Positions 38,773 through 63,773 of a stretch of DNA of 64,000 nucleotides are shown here, one piece after another. Each line of letters starts with the position of its first letter. Position 1 is the stretch's first letter. The DNA comes from an uncultured Desulfobacterium sp. (GTDB taxonomy: Bacteria > Desulfobacterota > DSM-4660 > Desulfatiglandales > Desulfatiglandaceae), in contig LT984855.1 in assembly GCA_900258555.1 (NCBI GenBank), positions 431,821-495,820 on the forward strand, given 5' to 3'. Both the position numbers and the translations under genes were made by a program. Under the pieces are notes generated by a model that made no database searches, was not told where the DNA came from, and saw only the letters and a list, made by a program, of their open reading frames with translations.

Positions 38773-38962
38773 AACGCCTCCATTCTTGTATCAGTTGGCT
38801 GAAATGAAAGTGTTCCCGGATTAAGTTCTTACCTCACCAAAGAGGGGCCTTGAGATTAGTATTTTTATGACTCCAAGTCAACTACCATCGGTTGAATATG
38901 ATGGCTTAAGGAGATAAAAATTCAGGGCGGTTCACGTGGGCAAAAAAAGGCAATAAAAAAAA

Positions 38963-39002
38963 TAGCCACCGCCCTACGATATCATAATATAGAACAGTGG
39001 CT
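38963..39002 (-). terminator. Probable terminator of the HesB-like selenoprotein gene
   Basis: On the minus strand AGCCAC and GTGGCT enclose a 28-base loop and are followed by ATTTTTTTTATT. It lies about 50 bases after the stop of the HesB-like gene. The remaining bases up to trpB2 (38773-38962) show no other feature. Confidence 0.55.
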
Positions 39003-39054
39003 TCTAAACCAGGCTTCTGTATTTTTAAAAATTCTATGCTGTGTCAAGCTGTTT

Positions 39055-39372
39055 TTAACAACTGCACGAGCTCCCGCATGATGTTGCGGGTTTTGGCATA
39101 TTGGAAGAAATACTGAACCCTGCCCCTAGGACGGATTCAATATAATCCACCTTTATTGGTTTTATCCTCTCATAAAAATCCTTTTCCACCACAAATTTAA
39201 GGCCTCTGTCCTCAAATATTTCATCACCATCTCTCGACTCATCCAGAGCCAGACCAAGGGATGGACCCGATCACCCACCCTGAGACAGCATCACCCTTAT
39301 AGGGGGAAAAATATCCCTGTCTTTTAAAAAATCTTTAATCATATCACTTGCTTTTTCAGTAACTTCAAACAT
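39055..39372 (-). CDS. HesB/IscA-like selenoprotein (Sec34)
   Basis: The minus strand from ATG 39372 (with 'TTAGGAGGCG' upstream) reads through an in-frame TGA at 39273-39271 to TAA, giving 105 aa. The TGA lies in 'VMLSQGG-U-SGPSLGLALDE', exactly where IscA/HesB proteins have the first conserved Cys (GGCSG). The C-terminus 'PATSCGSSCSC' is Cys-rich. HesB-like selenoproteins are known in deltaproteobacteria. After the UGA, CATCC (39263-39259) can pair with GGATG (39244-39240) around a loop containing GGTCT, a candidate SECIS. A-type proteins carry or transfer Fe-S clusters; a role here is inferred. A stop at codon 34 would leave no useful protein. Confidence 0.88.
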
Positions 39373-39613
39373 ATTCGCCTCCTAACGGAATCAGTTTCGA
39401 ACTTGAAACAATATATCCACAAATAGGGATTTGTCAAATGAGGTTCTTCATAAGCTTTGGCCCGAGCCAAAGGGGAACCATCCTCAGCAACTATTTCTGC
39501 TGAAACGCCTATTTTTTTATTAAATTTCTATCCCGTACAAAATGAGTTTTACGATCTGACATCGTTGGTGACCGTCGACAATAAAGGCATACACTTTTCT
39601 AGTTTCCATTCCT

Positions 39614-41854
39614 CTAAGGCGTTGCGGCATCAAGGGGTGTTGCCCCTACACCCTGTGGGGTCTCAGAATCCTTTCGTTTCCTTGACGATCTTGGCCGTTC
39701 AACCTTTTCCTGAGTCTTAGGTCTATCCACGCCTGTCTCTATGGATCTGGTATTTCTTGAGCCCCCTGTTGATTTCTCATAAGTCCTTGACTTTGTACTG
39801 CCTTCCAGGTTTGTCCTCTCAGATTCATTGGCCCGTTGCTTGACTGTGGTCTTTTCGTGGCCTCTGCTATAACTGCCTGTATCTGAGTTAATTTCGGACG
39901 ACTGAGTATCTTTCACATCATCATATTCTCTCCTGCCCGACCTCTTACTTGATTTTTCTGTCCTGTTGGATATCTTTTGGCCATCTAATGTCTGTTCAAC
40001 TGGGCTGGTATTTTGAGGGCCTTCCATCTCCTTGCCTTTAGACCCTGAACCCTGCATCTCTCTTTTGGATCGTTTGGATCTCCAGGTCCTTTCCTTCTTA
40101 TCTTCCTGGGGCGCAGTTACAGCAGGACCTTGTGTAGTCTGCTCCGGTGAAACTGTTTTATTCAAAGGCTCTTCTTGCGGCTTAATGGTCCTGGTTTTCT
40201 TCAGTCTTTTCTCACTCGGTTCAGCTGCCTGGTATTCATCTGCTGACTGGCCTTCAGGGCCTGTTTCATTTATTACTTCATGAGATTGTTCAGACTTTAT
40301 TGACCCCTTTTTTCCTTTGGCTGATTGAGGAAACTGGGTTGATTCGCCCCCTTTGGGTTCAGAGTCCATGTCGAGCGTTTGGGTTGACCCTTTTTCCATT
40401 GTTTTTTTGGCCTCTTCTGATCTTGTCTTGGAGCCCTTGACCTTTTGCCACTTCCTTTCAACAGGTGTGCCTTCAACAGTCTTGACCTTCATCACCTTTG
40501 GCGCAGAATCAGGCCTTAATACCGAGGCATCTCGCGCTCTTGTAAGGTGACGTTTTTCCTTTAATTCATTTACATTAACATTCTGGATACTGGCAGGAGG
40601 ACGTCTCTTGTGATGACCCTCCTTAACAATGGGAAAATTGGCATCTTTTTTCGGCCTGATATTAGGGCCCCCGATTGAGATCTTTTCCTTCAAAAATGGA
40701 TTGTCCTTGCCATGTTTGTATCTGTGTCTTCCGTGGACAAAGTCGTCATTATCAACCATTGTCACTGCATTGCGGACATGGACATTATGGTATGAGATAT
40801 TGTTTACATTTATATGGGTGACATTGACCTTGGTTATGTTCACGCTGTGATGACCGTAATGACCGCGGCCATAGTATACGTCTCTCGGGCCGAGGGGTAT
40901 CCAGGCTACATATGTCGGGGTATGAATCCAGCCGACAAATCCCGGCCCCCAAATTACAGATCCCCTTACCGGCGGCACCCAGCACCAGCCTATGGTCCTT
41001 CTAAAGGCCCACCTGCCATAATGGTATGGGGCCCAGCCCCAGGGTTCATGTGATATCCACACATAGTCGCCGTGAATCCACATCCACCGGCCAAGCCTGT
41101 ATGGCGCCCATCCGGCCGAGACAACCACTGTGGGGGTCCATACATATCCATATTCACTGTCATTCACCCATCTCCCATTTTCTTCAAAGTCATCTGAATA
41201 CGGATACAGGTCCTCAGGCAGATATCTGGGAGGTGACCTCCATCCGGCACTCCTCCTGTCCCTTTCCCTGTTCCAGTCTTCCCAATCATCAGGCTCGCCC
41301 AAGGAGGATGTCTCGGCATAATTGTCACTGTCCAGGATTAATGCATAGCCACGTTCAATGGTTGTCTTGCCGTCATCACTTTCAACGTCTACTGAACCCT
41401 TTAAAACAGAAATCTTATTTGGGCCATCCTTGGAAACATCTACCAAAAAGATTGAACGCTCATAGGCGCGCACTGAGGCAAGCGGAGTATCCATCTGGAG
41501 AATGGTTCCCTTCTGTCCTTTGAGGTTCACATAGGCGCGTCCTTCATTCAGAAAAGTCTGGATAGAATCGTCTTCAACTGTGAGCACCTCAAGGGCCGAT
41601 TCTTCATTAAGCCTTACACACGTCCTGTCTCTAAGCTGAAGTTCAGTCCTCGCCTCTTCCGGGACCCATATACGGTCGCCTTCCTGCAATGGCATGTTGA
41701 TTGAGGCAGGCACCCAGTCCCCAGTGTCTTCAGTATTTACCTGGACATCACCTTCAATGAGGCTAATGCGCAAGTCCCCAAGATCAGCAGGGTGTGACAT
41801 GCCAGGAAAAACGAATAGAATGGTTAACACTGGGAAATACTTTAAAATTTTCAT
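39614..41854 (-). CDS. Exported FecR-domain protein with Trp/Tyr-rich (DUF6600-like) region and charged tail
   Basis: The frame is open from 41956, but Met at 41854 starts a good signal peptide ('MKILKYFPVLTILFVFPGMS'), giving 746 aa. Residues about 25-150 resemble a FecR domain ('ISLIEGDVQV', 'EGDRIWVPEEARTELQLRD', 'VRAYERSIFLVDV'). Residues about 205-330 are Trp/Tyr/Pro-rich ('GWAPYRLGRWMWI', 'EPWGWAPYHYGRWAF', 'VIWGPGFVGW'), the DUF6600 pattern. The last 400 residues are charged, Ser/Thr/Glu/Lys-rich and probably disordered. It is likely periplasmic or envelope-bound. No sigma factor or TonB receptor is nearby, so iron signalling is not supported. Confidence 0.75.
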   Translation of the reverse strand: MKILKYFPVLTILFVFPGMSHPADLGDLRISLIEGDVQVNTEDTGDWVPASINMPLQEGDRIWVPEEARTELQLRDRTCVRLNEESALEVLTVEDDSIQTFLNEGRAYVNLKGQKGTILQMDTPLASVRAYERSIFLVDVSKDGPNKISVLKGSVDVESDDGKTTIERGYALILDSDNYAETSSLGEPDDWEDWNRERDRRSAGWRSPPRYLPEDLYPYSDDFEENGRWVNDSEYGYVWTPTVVVSAGWAPYRLGRWMWIHGDYVWISHEPWGWAPYHYGRWAFRRTIGWCWVPPVRGSVIWGPGFVGWIHTPTYVAWIPLGPRDVYYGRGHYGHHSVNITKVNVTHINVNNISYHNVHVRNAVTMVDNDDFVHGRHRYKHGKDNPFLKEKISIGGPNIRPKKDANFPIVKEGHHKRRPPASIQNVNVNELKEKRHLTRARDASVLRPDSAPKVMKVKTVEGTPVERKWQKVKGSKTRSEEAKKTMEKGSTQTLDMDSEPKGGESTQFPQSAKGKKGSIKSEQSHEVINETGPEGQSADEYQAAEPSEKRLKKTRTIKPQEEPLNKTVSPEQTTQGPAVTAPQEDKKERTWRSKRSKREMQGSGSKGKEMEGPQNTSPVEQTLDGQKISNRTEKSSKRSGRREYDDVKDTQSSEINSDTGSYSRGHEKTTVKQRANESERTNLEGSTKSRTYEKSTGGSRNTRSIETGVDRPKTQEKVERPRSSRKRKDSETPQGVGATPLDAATP

Positions 41855-42105
41855 AAGTAAACCAACCTTTTTTATTTTATGTTTTACAAGTAATTTTCTA
41901 ATTCTTTGTTGGATAAGTGATTTTAAATATATTCTAAGAATAGTGTAACAGGCCAATAAGTCAAGAATACTCTTTCGGCTGTTAAATCTTATTTAATCGA
42001 TTTTTAATTGCTTTCGTCAGGATAATACTTTGAAGATTGTAATTTTTTTGATAAGCTGACAAAAAACCTTCGAATTCAAAAAAAAAGATAATGGAGGACC
42101 AATTC

Positions 42106-61872: not shown

Positions 61873-62910
61873 ATGACTAATAAGATATTCACCAAGGAAG
61901 AATGGACAAAGGCTCTTCAAGGCCTCAGTGACAGTTACAAGGTGTTTGTACCGGTAAAAGACGGGGACTTCCATACGTTCAAGCCTATGAATGCAACCAA
62001 GGCCCCTGATTTTGATTTTCAGAATACCAGGCTTTCTGCCAGGTCGCTGGTATATCCCCAAGCTGAAAGGATGTTTGAATATTCTTTGGATGAAAATGAC
62101 CCTGAGGCCAATATTATCAAAGAAACGCCCAAGGACTATTCCCCTCAAGCGATTGTGGGCATAAGACCATGTGACGCACATGGCTTTAAAATTGTTAAGC
62201 CCAATTTCGATAACAAGGAATACCGCGATCCATGGTGGATACAGCACTTTGAATCCACAGTGCTCGTTGGGCTTGGTTGCAATCAGCCGTGTTCCACGTG
62301 CTTTTGCGCCTCTGTGGGTGGAGGCCCGTTTAATAAGGATGTCTTAGATGTCCTGATTTACGACCTTGGCGCTAATTTTATGGTTAGCGGCCTGACAGAA
62401 AAGGGTGAGGCTTTCCTTAGCAAGGCACAAGGCGGCAAAGCCGCCGATGATGCGGCTGTTAAGCAGGCAGAGGCACTTGCAACCGAGGCAGCAAAGAAGG
62501 TTAAGGCCGATGTCCCCACAGACAAATTAAAAGATAAAGTGATTAATGATCTGTTTGCTGCGCCCTTCTGGCAGGATGTGGGGTTTGCATGCCTTAACTG
62601 CGGCACATGCACCTATCTTTGCCCCACCTGCTGGTGCTTTGATATACAGGATGAGGTGTTGGGAAAGCAGGGAGACCGCATCAGAAACTGGGATTCATGC
62701 ATGTTTCCGCTTTTTACCCTCCATGGCTCAGGGCACAACCCAAGGGATCAAAAATTTCAGCGTGTGCGTCAGCGCTTTATGCACAAGCTCAAATACTACG
62801 TTGATAAGTATCAGGGCGGCGTGCAGTGTTCAGGCTGCGGCCGTTGCGTAAGATATTGTCCTGTAAATATAGATATTCGGCAAGTGGCCGAGTTGATGAA
62901 TAATTATTAA
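61873..62910 (+). CDS. FlxB/AsrA/HydB-like iron-sulfur subunit
   Basis: The 345-aa protein has the family segment 'QAIVGIRPCDAHGFKI', 'GLGCNQPCSTCFCASVGGGP', a central Ala/Lys-rich helix, and two C-terminal motifs 'CLNCGTCTYLCPTCWCFD' and 'CSGCGRCVRYCPVNIDIRQ'. This matches the AsrA/hydrogenase-beta family (FlxB in Hdr-Flx), which carries 4Fe-4S clusters and connects the FlxA flavoprotein to the rest. It follows the FlxC-like gene by 100 bases and the FlxA-like gene starts 5 bases after its stop. Confidence 0.85.
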   Translation: MTNKIFTKEEWTKALQGLSDSYKVFVPVKDGDFHTFKPMNATKAPDFDFQNTRLSARSLVYPQAERMFEYSLDENDPEANIIKETPKDYSPQAIVGIRPCDAHGFKIVKPNFDNKEYRDPWWIQHFESTVLVGLGCNQPCSTCFCASVGGGPFNKDVLDVLIYDLGANFMVSGLTEKGEAFLSKAQGGKAADDAAVKQAEALATEAAKKVKADVPTDKLKDKVINDLFAAPFWQDVGFACLNCGTCTYLCPTCWCFDIQDEVLGKQGDRIRNWDSCMFPLFTLHGSGHNPRDQKFQRVRQRFMHKLKYYVDKYQGGVQCSGCGRCVRYCPVNIDIRQVAELMNNY

Positions 62911-62915
62911 GAAGA

Positions 62916-63773
62916 ATGCGGGGTGTTCCATTGCAAAATCCATATCTACCCTATCCGGTTCGTATAGATAAGATTACGACAGAGACTACAGACAAAAATC
63001 TGAAGACATTCAGGTTCGTGTTTCTTAATCCCGAGGATGAAAAAAAGTTTGCCTATACCCCGGGCCAGTTTGCCGAGCTGTCTGTTCCTGGCAAGGGCGA
63101 GATACCGATAGGCATTGCGTCTTCTCCCACTGAAAAGGGCTTTGTAGCCTTCACGGTAAACAAGGTCGGCCTTGTGACCAATTACATGCACAACATGAAA
63201 GAGGGAGAGATAATGGGTATCAGGGGGCCGCTGGGCAACTGGTATCCCTGGGAGGAGATGGAAGGTAAAAACATTGTGATCGTAGGCGGCGGTTTTGCAT
63301 TCACAACGCTAAGATCCAGCATTGTCTACATGATACAGCCAGAGAACAGAGCAAGGTTCAAGGATATCTCGGTTGTATATGGCGCAAGGAACCCGGGACT
63401 GTTGCTGTATAGAGACGAGCTAGCCGAATGGGAAAAAAGAGACGACATCAACATGCACATAACAGTGGACGGTACTGATGACCCTGACTGGAAGTACAAC
63501 GTAGGGTTTGTGCCTGCCATCACTGAAAAGAAGATCACGAGTGCCGATAATGCCATAGCCATTGTGTGCGGCCCTCCGATCATGATCAAATTCACCCAGC
63601 CGGTGCTTGAAAAGCTGGGCTTTCCGCCCGAGCGGATCATCCTCTCCCTTGAGATGAGGATGAAATGCGGCATCGGTATCTGCGGCAGGTGTAATATCGG
63701 AGATAAATATGTCTGCAAGGACGGGCCGGTATTTTCCCTCGCAAAGTTAAAACAGATGCCGGGAGAGTACTAA
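62916..63773 (+). CDS. FlxA/AsrB-like FAD/NAD(P)-binding subunit
   Basis: The 285-aa ferredoxin-reductase-like protein has the FAD part ('FAYTPGQFAEL', 'PIGIASSP', 'GIRGPLGNWYPW'), the NAD(P) part ('NIVIVGGGFAFTTLRSS', 'AIVCGPPIMIKF') and a C-terminal [2Fe-2S] site ('MKCGIGICGRCNIGDKYVC'), as in FlxA, AsrB and PyrK-type proteins. It gives the operon a second NAD(P)H site besides NuoF. The start may be ATG 62916 or TTG 62934. It is the last operon gene; a terminator follows at 63900. Confidence 0.9.
   Translation: MRGVPLQNPYLPYPVRIDKITTETTDKNLKTFRFVFLNPEDEKKFAYTPGQFAELSVPGKGEIPIGIASSPTEKGFVAFTVNKVGLVTNYMHNMKEGEIMGIRGPLGNWYPWEEMEGKNIVIVGGGFAFTTLRSSIVYMIQPENRARFKDISVVYGARNPGLLLYRDELAEWEKRDDINMHITVDGTDDPDWKYNVGFVPAITEKKITSADNAIAIVCGPPIMIKFTQPVLEKLGFPPERIILSLEMRMKCGIGICGRCNIGDKYVCKDGPVFSLAKLKQMPGEY

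Follow-up and report, generated by a model that had tools for sequence, protein, structure and literature searches.

The locus raises two questions: is the in-frame TGA of a small reading frame from an uncultured Desulfobacterium sp. read as selenocysteine (Sec), and if so, what does Sec contribute at the first ligand position of an A-type (IscA/HesB) protein? The frame lies at 39055-39372 on the minus strand of the window, the 64,000-nucleotide stretch of DNA analyzed here. With TGA translated as a residue it encodes 105 amino acids, MFEVTEKASDMIKDFLKDRDIFPPIRVMLSQGG-U-SGPSLGLALDESRDGDEIFEDRGLKFVVEKDFYERIKPIKVDYIESVLGAGFSISSNMPKPATSCGSSCSC, and the motif around its single in-frame TGA is SQGG-U-SGP. 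The first-pass annotation had described a 105-residue gene with a strong ribosome-binding site, UGA in place of the first ligand Cys of the A-type family, and a Cys-rich C-terminus. These descriptions hold: AGGAGG precedes the ATG by 5 nt, alignment to A-type proteins places the TGA at the Cys of their GGCSG motif, and the tail reads CGSSCSC. Its further statement that ORF calling misses the gene is correct for a plain table-11 ORF listing, although a curated NCBI model covers exactly such a protein. Judged by its sequence, the frame is a genuine selenoprotein gene (Table 1).

Table 1. Features of the selenoprotein locus, with window coordinates and the evidence for each.
Feature	Position	Strand	Evidence
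HesB/IscA-like selenoprotein gene	39055..39372	minus	NF038090 (129.2 bits) and PF01521 (32.1 bits) matches, TGA read as residue
UGA, putative Sec34, aligned with first ligand Cys of IscA	39271..39273	minus	Homologue counts; alignment to IscA-type structures
Cys-rich C-terminal tail TSCGSSCSC and stop; candidate thiolate ligands C99, C103, C105	39055..39084	minus	Alignment, model
Predicted bSECIS hairpin, stem GGCUC/GAGUC (3′ arm also given as GAGCC), loop UGGAU	39236..39250	minus	Comparative
Shine-Dalgarno AGGAGG	39378..39383	minus	Sequence; kept in sister gene (L003)
Sigma-70-type promoter TTGACA-16-TATATT	39410..39437	minus	11/12 match; both hexamers kept in sister, flanks diverged
Intrinsic terminator GCCACUG...CGGUGGC, then U8	38960..39003 (hairpin with U8 near 38960-39005)	minus	Fold −22.7 kcal/mol, z = −2.58; hairpin kept in sister

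The curated model, NCBIfam NF038090 (IscA_HesB_Se), matches over its entire length (positions 1-101 of 101) and well above its cutoff of 85 bits, with the TGA (39273-39271) at the first A-type ligand position, where members carry Sec or Cys. The Pfam domain PF01521 (Fe-S_biosyn; cutoff 26.3 bits) likewise assigns the product to the A-type fold. The TIGR01911 model (HesB_rel_seleno) scores 43.0 bits, below its cutoff of 66.35, and we therefore filed the gene under the related NF038090; the IscA, SufA, and ErpA equivalog models score far below their cutoffs. Nothing of substance separates the gene from NF038090 members, with which it shares a GG[U/C]xGP motif and a Cys-rich tail, although these relatives often occur in a pgi-rdgB neighborhood and the window gene lies away from such a block. 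The "HesB-like" selenoproteins of TIGR01911 agree with it in Sec position, UxGP motif, and hosts that include Deltaproteobacteria, and differ in that the gene falls below the cutoff of their model. IscA, SufA, and ErpA share the PF01521 fold and the ligand position, whereas the window protein carries Sec for the first Cys and a C-x3-C-x-C tail in place of CGCG, and is encoded outside isc/suf operons.

The family is known from earlier work, in Deltaproteobacteria since 2006. A 2006 survey listed 11 HesB-like selenoproteins, with hosts including Syntrophobacter, Syntrophus, Desulfovibrio, and Geobacter, and described a Cys form in Desulfitobacterium that derives from a Sec form and retains a remnant SECIS element (PMC1794560). 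A 2026 review lists HesB-like selenoproteins with the motif UxGP and cites TIGR01911 as the family model (PMC13188914). Mutagenesis combined with 75Se labelling reportedly identified another HesB-like selenoprotein, MMJJ_08070 of Methanococcus maripaludis (PMC11097638), which is archaeal and has a different SECIS system. In our own sample of the phylum, NF038090 matches 146 of 297 genomes (E up to 1e-15), and by hand count 120 of the 150 best-scoring matches listed have an in-frame TGA. Since the family is already catalogued (NF038090, "HesB-like", UxGP), the window gene is a fresh example of it and not a new find, and its identification is routine.

The evidence that UGA is decoded comes from comparison of homologues. 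We assembled 83 distinct sequences from genomes of the class, the phylum sample, and five public MAG loci. Codon 34 is TGA in 71 of these, TGT or TGC in 12, and Trp or any other codon in none. The first-pass annotation had proposed a search for such proteins in Desulfobacterota, and had named a Trp or other residue at this position, or the lack of a conserved downstream hairpin in relatives, as grounds for rejecting the assignment; the search returned 71 TGA homologues, and Sec and Cys are the only residues found. A sister gene (L003, from Desulfobacteraceae bacterium UBA5623) is 93% identical, and 16 of the 21 differences downstream of the TGA fall at third codon positions, a pattern indicating that purifying selection persists past the TGA.

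Bacterial SECIS elements, as formulated in the bSECISearch rule, are stem-loops just downstream of the UGA whose small apical loop has G at position 1 or 2. Such a hairpin is present in the window gene, within the 39235-39273 minus-strand interval in which the first-pass annotation had expected it: the stem starts 21 nt after the TGA, and the 5-nt loop at +26 has G as its second position. All five pairs form in 68 of the 71 TGA genes, so the hairpin is indeed kept among relatives, and in none of the 12 Cys genes, including Cys genes that lie directly beside a Sec gene in the same genome. Three genes (L076, L112, and L114) carry a compensatory double change from C-G to U-A in the stem. When synonymous codons were shuffled within each gene, intact stems numbered 7.8 of 71 on average and 14 at most. 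The codons that form the hairpin hardly vary across the class-level set (GCT in 47/48, CTG in 48/48, GAT in 43/48, and GAG in 47/48). The element is evident by comparative test only, because single-sequence folding of the region gives no signal over shuffled sequence (z = +0.92); a search of the region against Rfam returned nothing meaningful, with one sub-threshold CsrB match.

The folding result is what might be expected if translation really ended at the TGA, or if the TGA were a sequencing error or the scar of a pseudogene, with the downstream family likeness a mere residue. The recurrence of TGA at this codon in 71 distinct genes, which come from independent assemblies, the selection beyond it, and a SECIS that accompanies TGA and is lost with Cys make this explanation extremely improbable. 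Reading of the UGA as Sec, with decoding by SelB at the SECIS, is thus well supported by the comparative data, and the identity of the gene as a HesB/IscA-like selenoprotein together with Sec decoding, taken alone, is nearly certain.

The genome encodes the complete bacterial machinery for Sec insertion, namely SelA (627 bits), SelB (382 bits), SelD (385 bits, with its own in-frame TGA), and a tRNA-Sec with anticodon UCA (72 bits). We also observed a second SelB (L017 1471-3555, minus strand; 303 bits) that shares about 30% identity with the main one and has a divergent tRNA-Sec(UCA) at its 5′ end (L009 1497-1588, minus strand); the two map to C1:1451900-1454000 of the genome. This SelB/tRNA-Sec pair is present in at least four relatives (L148, L150, L151, and L154) and probably in a further one (L149). 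As the second SelB comes with its own tRNA-Sec and the pair recurs in relatives, two parallel Sec decoding sets may coexist in the genome. Two tRNA-Sec genes in one bacterium have precedent (PMC5330540), and a limited literature search returned no paper describing a second SelB paired with its own tRNA-Sec in the present group. The main SelB is the likelier decoder of the hesB-Se UGA, because most relatives with the same SECIS show one tRNA-Sec only.

The gene appears to be transcribed on its own. The annotated promise of a separate terminator is borne out by a hairpin followed by U8 about 50 nt past the stop codon, the hairpin being kept in the sister gene. Comparison with the sister further indicates that the promoter hexamers, Shine-Dalgarno sequence, coding frame, and terminator are all retained while the DNA upstream of the promoter has diverged; the gene would therefore, by sequence, constitute a self-contained transcription unit. 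It is flanked by a FecR/DUF6600 gene and a TrpB-like gene, and the neighbors in the sister (locus L075) are different again. The FecR/DUF6600 protein encoded directly upstream (39614-41956, minus strand) has 780 residues and a long, low-complexity, charged C-terminal half. At the end of the window, Fe-S/FAD oxidoreductase genes at 61873-63773 have a near-duplicate (L073 16304-17991) beside the HdrA cluster on contig C1.

About 40 related loci were compared; in 25 of them rdgB precedes the gene in the same orientation at a distance of 100-300 bp, often with pgi before it, and the block there runs pgi, rdgB, hesB, a convergent 144-residue gene, yggS, and a ttcA-like gene, the last named from its PP-loop motif alone. 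The convergent gene (L064 6912-7346, plus strand, and 18 other loci) is kept in 19 loci, has no Pfam or NCBIfam match, and encodes a protein with an apparent internal repeat containing CQxG motifs. We considered genome context as a clue to function and set it aside: the pgi-rdgB block seems to be neutral housekeeping, and the window copy and its sister lie outside it. That no isc or suf genes are nearby, as had been noted, was confirmed, the nearest NifU_N-type gene being just beyond the edge of the window at a distance of about 26 kb, and the only SufBD-core gene of the genome being on another contig.

The role of Sec in an A-type protein, called unexplained in the first-pass annotation, is still so in the literature consulted on HesB-like selenoproteins. 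An AlphaFold2 model of the product (pLDDT 86, pTM 0.76) finds its best matches in IscA (1r94, E 3.9e-7), [2Fe-2S]-bound IscA (1x0g), and SufA (2d2a). Positions invariant in 38 aligned members include G32, G33, U/C34, D44, D50, C99, and C105. Of the C...CxC ligand set of A-type proteins, Sec34, C99, and C105 are retained, but the tail has CGSSCSC in place of the fixed CGC; the spacing of the middle Cys varies between members, and the model shows the tail as disordered, with pLDDT below 50.

We lean toward a dimeric carrier of Fe-S clusters with a selenolate in place of one of the thiolate ligands, a reading we hold to be reasonably probable with the inferred carrier role included. SelB, guided by the SECIS hairpin within the coding sequence, would insert Sec at the UGA, and the 105-residue product would adopt the A-type fold, its Sec corresponding to Cys35 of IscA and its flexible tail carrying three Cys. 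Like other A-type proteins it would dimerize, Sec34 together with C99, C105, and probably C103 would bind an Fe-S cluster at the interface, and the dimer would hand this cluster to client proteins. The selenolate, as a softer and more readily redox-cycled ligand, could tune cluster affinity and transfer in an Fe-S-rich anaerobe. We favor this reading because Sec stands exactly where A-type proteins have their first ligand and the tail keeps the remaining thiols, so that Sec34 and the invariant C99 and C105 appear to recreate the three-ligand pattern. The complement of the genome points the same way: apart from hesB-Se and an unlinked Cys paralogue (L002 1474-1803, minus strand; genome C1:1464616-1464900; motif GGCCGP), no A-type protein was found in it with a model that does match classic A-type carriers in control genomes, and neither of the two is in an isc/suf operon. 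Other observations count against a carrier. The fixed CGC/CGCG motif that serves as ligand in IscA, SufA, and ErpA is absent from the tail, whose spacing is variable; there is no isc/suf link, and the neighbors conserved in relatives (pgi, rdgB, yggS, and a ttcA-like gene) suggest no Fe-S client. A HesB-like disruption mutant of Methanococcus maripaludis is moreover viable and unimpaired in nitrogen fixation (PMC11097638).

The same flexible, variably spaced, Cys-rich tail could instead supply a resolving thiol. The protein would then be a redox selenoprotein on an A-type scaffold, binding no cluster and reducing a disulfide, a peroxide, or another substrate through a selenenylsulfide between Sec34 and a tail Cys. 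Sec confers a clear rate advantage in redox catalysis, and we know of no advantage that it brings as an Fe-S ligand. The 2026 review regards most prokaryotic selenoproteins as redox proteins (PMC13188914), which, along with the possible resolving role of the tail, makes this the main rival. We nevertheless consider it unlikely: the motif is GGUxGP, with no UxxC or CxxU next to the Sec, and the three-position A-type ligand pattern is retained. Repeated exchange between Sec and Cys likewise shows that Cys can do the job, though redox families do the same.

Variable Cys-rich tails are also common among metal-trafficking proteins, and Sec and the tail Cys could serve to bind or deliver a soft metal or metalloid (Hg, As, Cu, or selenium itself). 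Metal-ligand roles have been proposed for Sec in the SaoB, SaoC, and UXX-star selenoproteins (PMC13188914). No metal-resistance genes were recognized adjoining the gene or among the conserved neighbors in relatives, and we regard this less likely role as decidedly improbable.

A variant of the carrier reading draws on gene pairs. In several families (L096, L097, L098, L105, L109, L110, and L112), Sec and Cys copies lie in tandem on the same strand, about 70-350 bp apart. At least three family groups (f17, f42, and f18) show the arrangement, and the Cys copies no longer have a SECIS hairpin. In the tree, Cys copies of f17 and f42 group beside their own Sec copies with moderate support, which suggests at least two independent origins of the tandem pairs. 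We count 6 to 8 Sec/Cys changes over the tree, an approximate figure given its few columns and many unresolved forks. The unlinked Cys paralogue of the Desulfobacterium genome is located about 11 kb from the second SelB, within a cluster of electron-transfer genes of HdrA-like and MvhD-like type. On the basis of the tandem pairs in several families and this paralogue, the Sec form could be one half of a Sec/Cys pair, forming a mixed dimer, as mitochondrial ISCA1 and ISCA2 do, in which a single selenolate would make the cluster asymmetric and direct its release; we rate this as improbable.

If the favored carrier reading is true, holding a transferable Fe-S cluster through a selenolate would be chemically unusual, and the family is widespread. 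The gene offers a small, clean protein with natural Sec and Cys variants, in which one can ask what an A-type carrier gains from Sec. The tandem Sec/Cys pairs and the second SelB with its tRNA-Sec are of greater interest than the selenoprotein gene itself.
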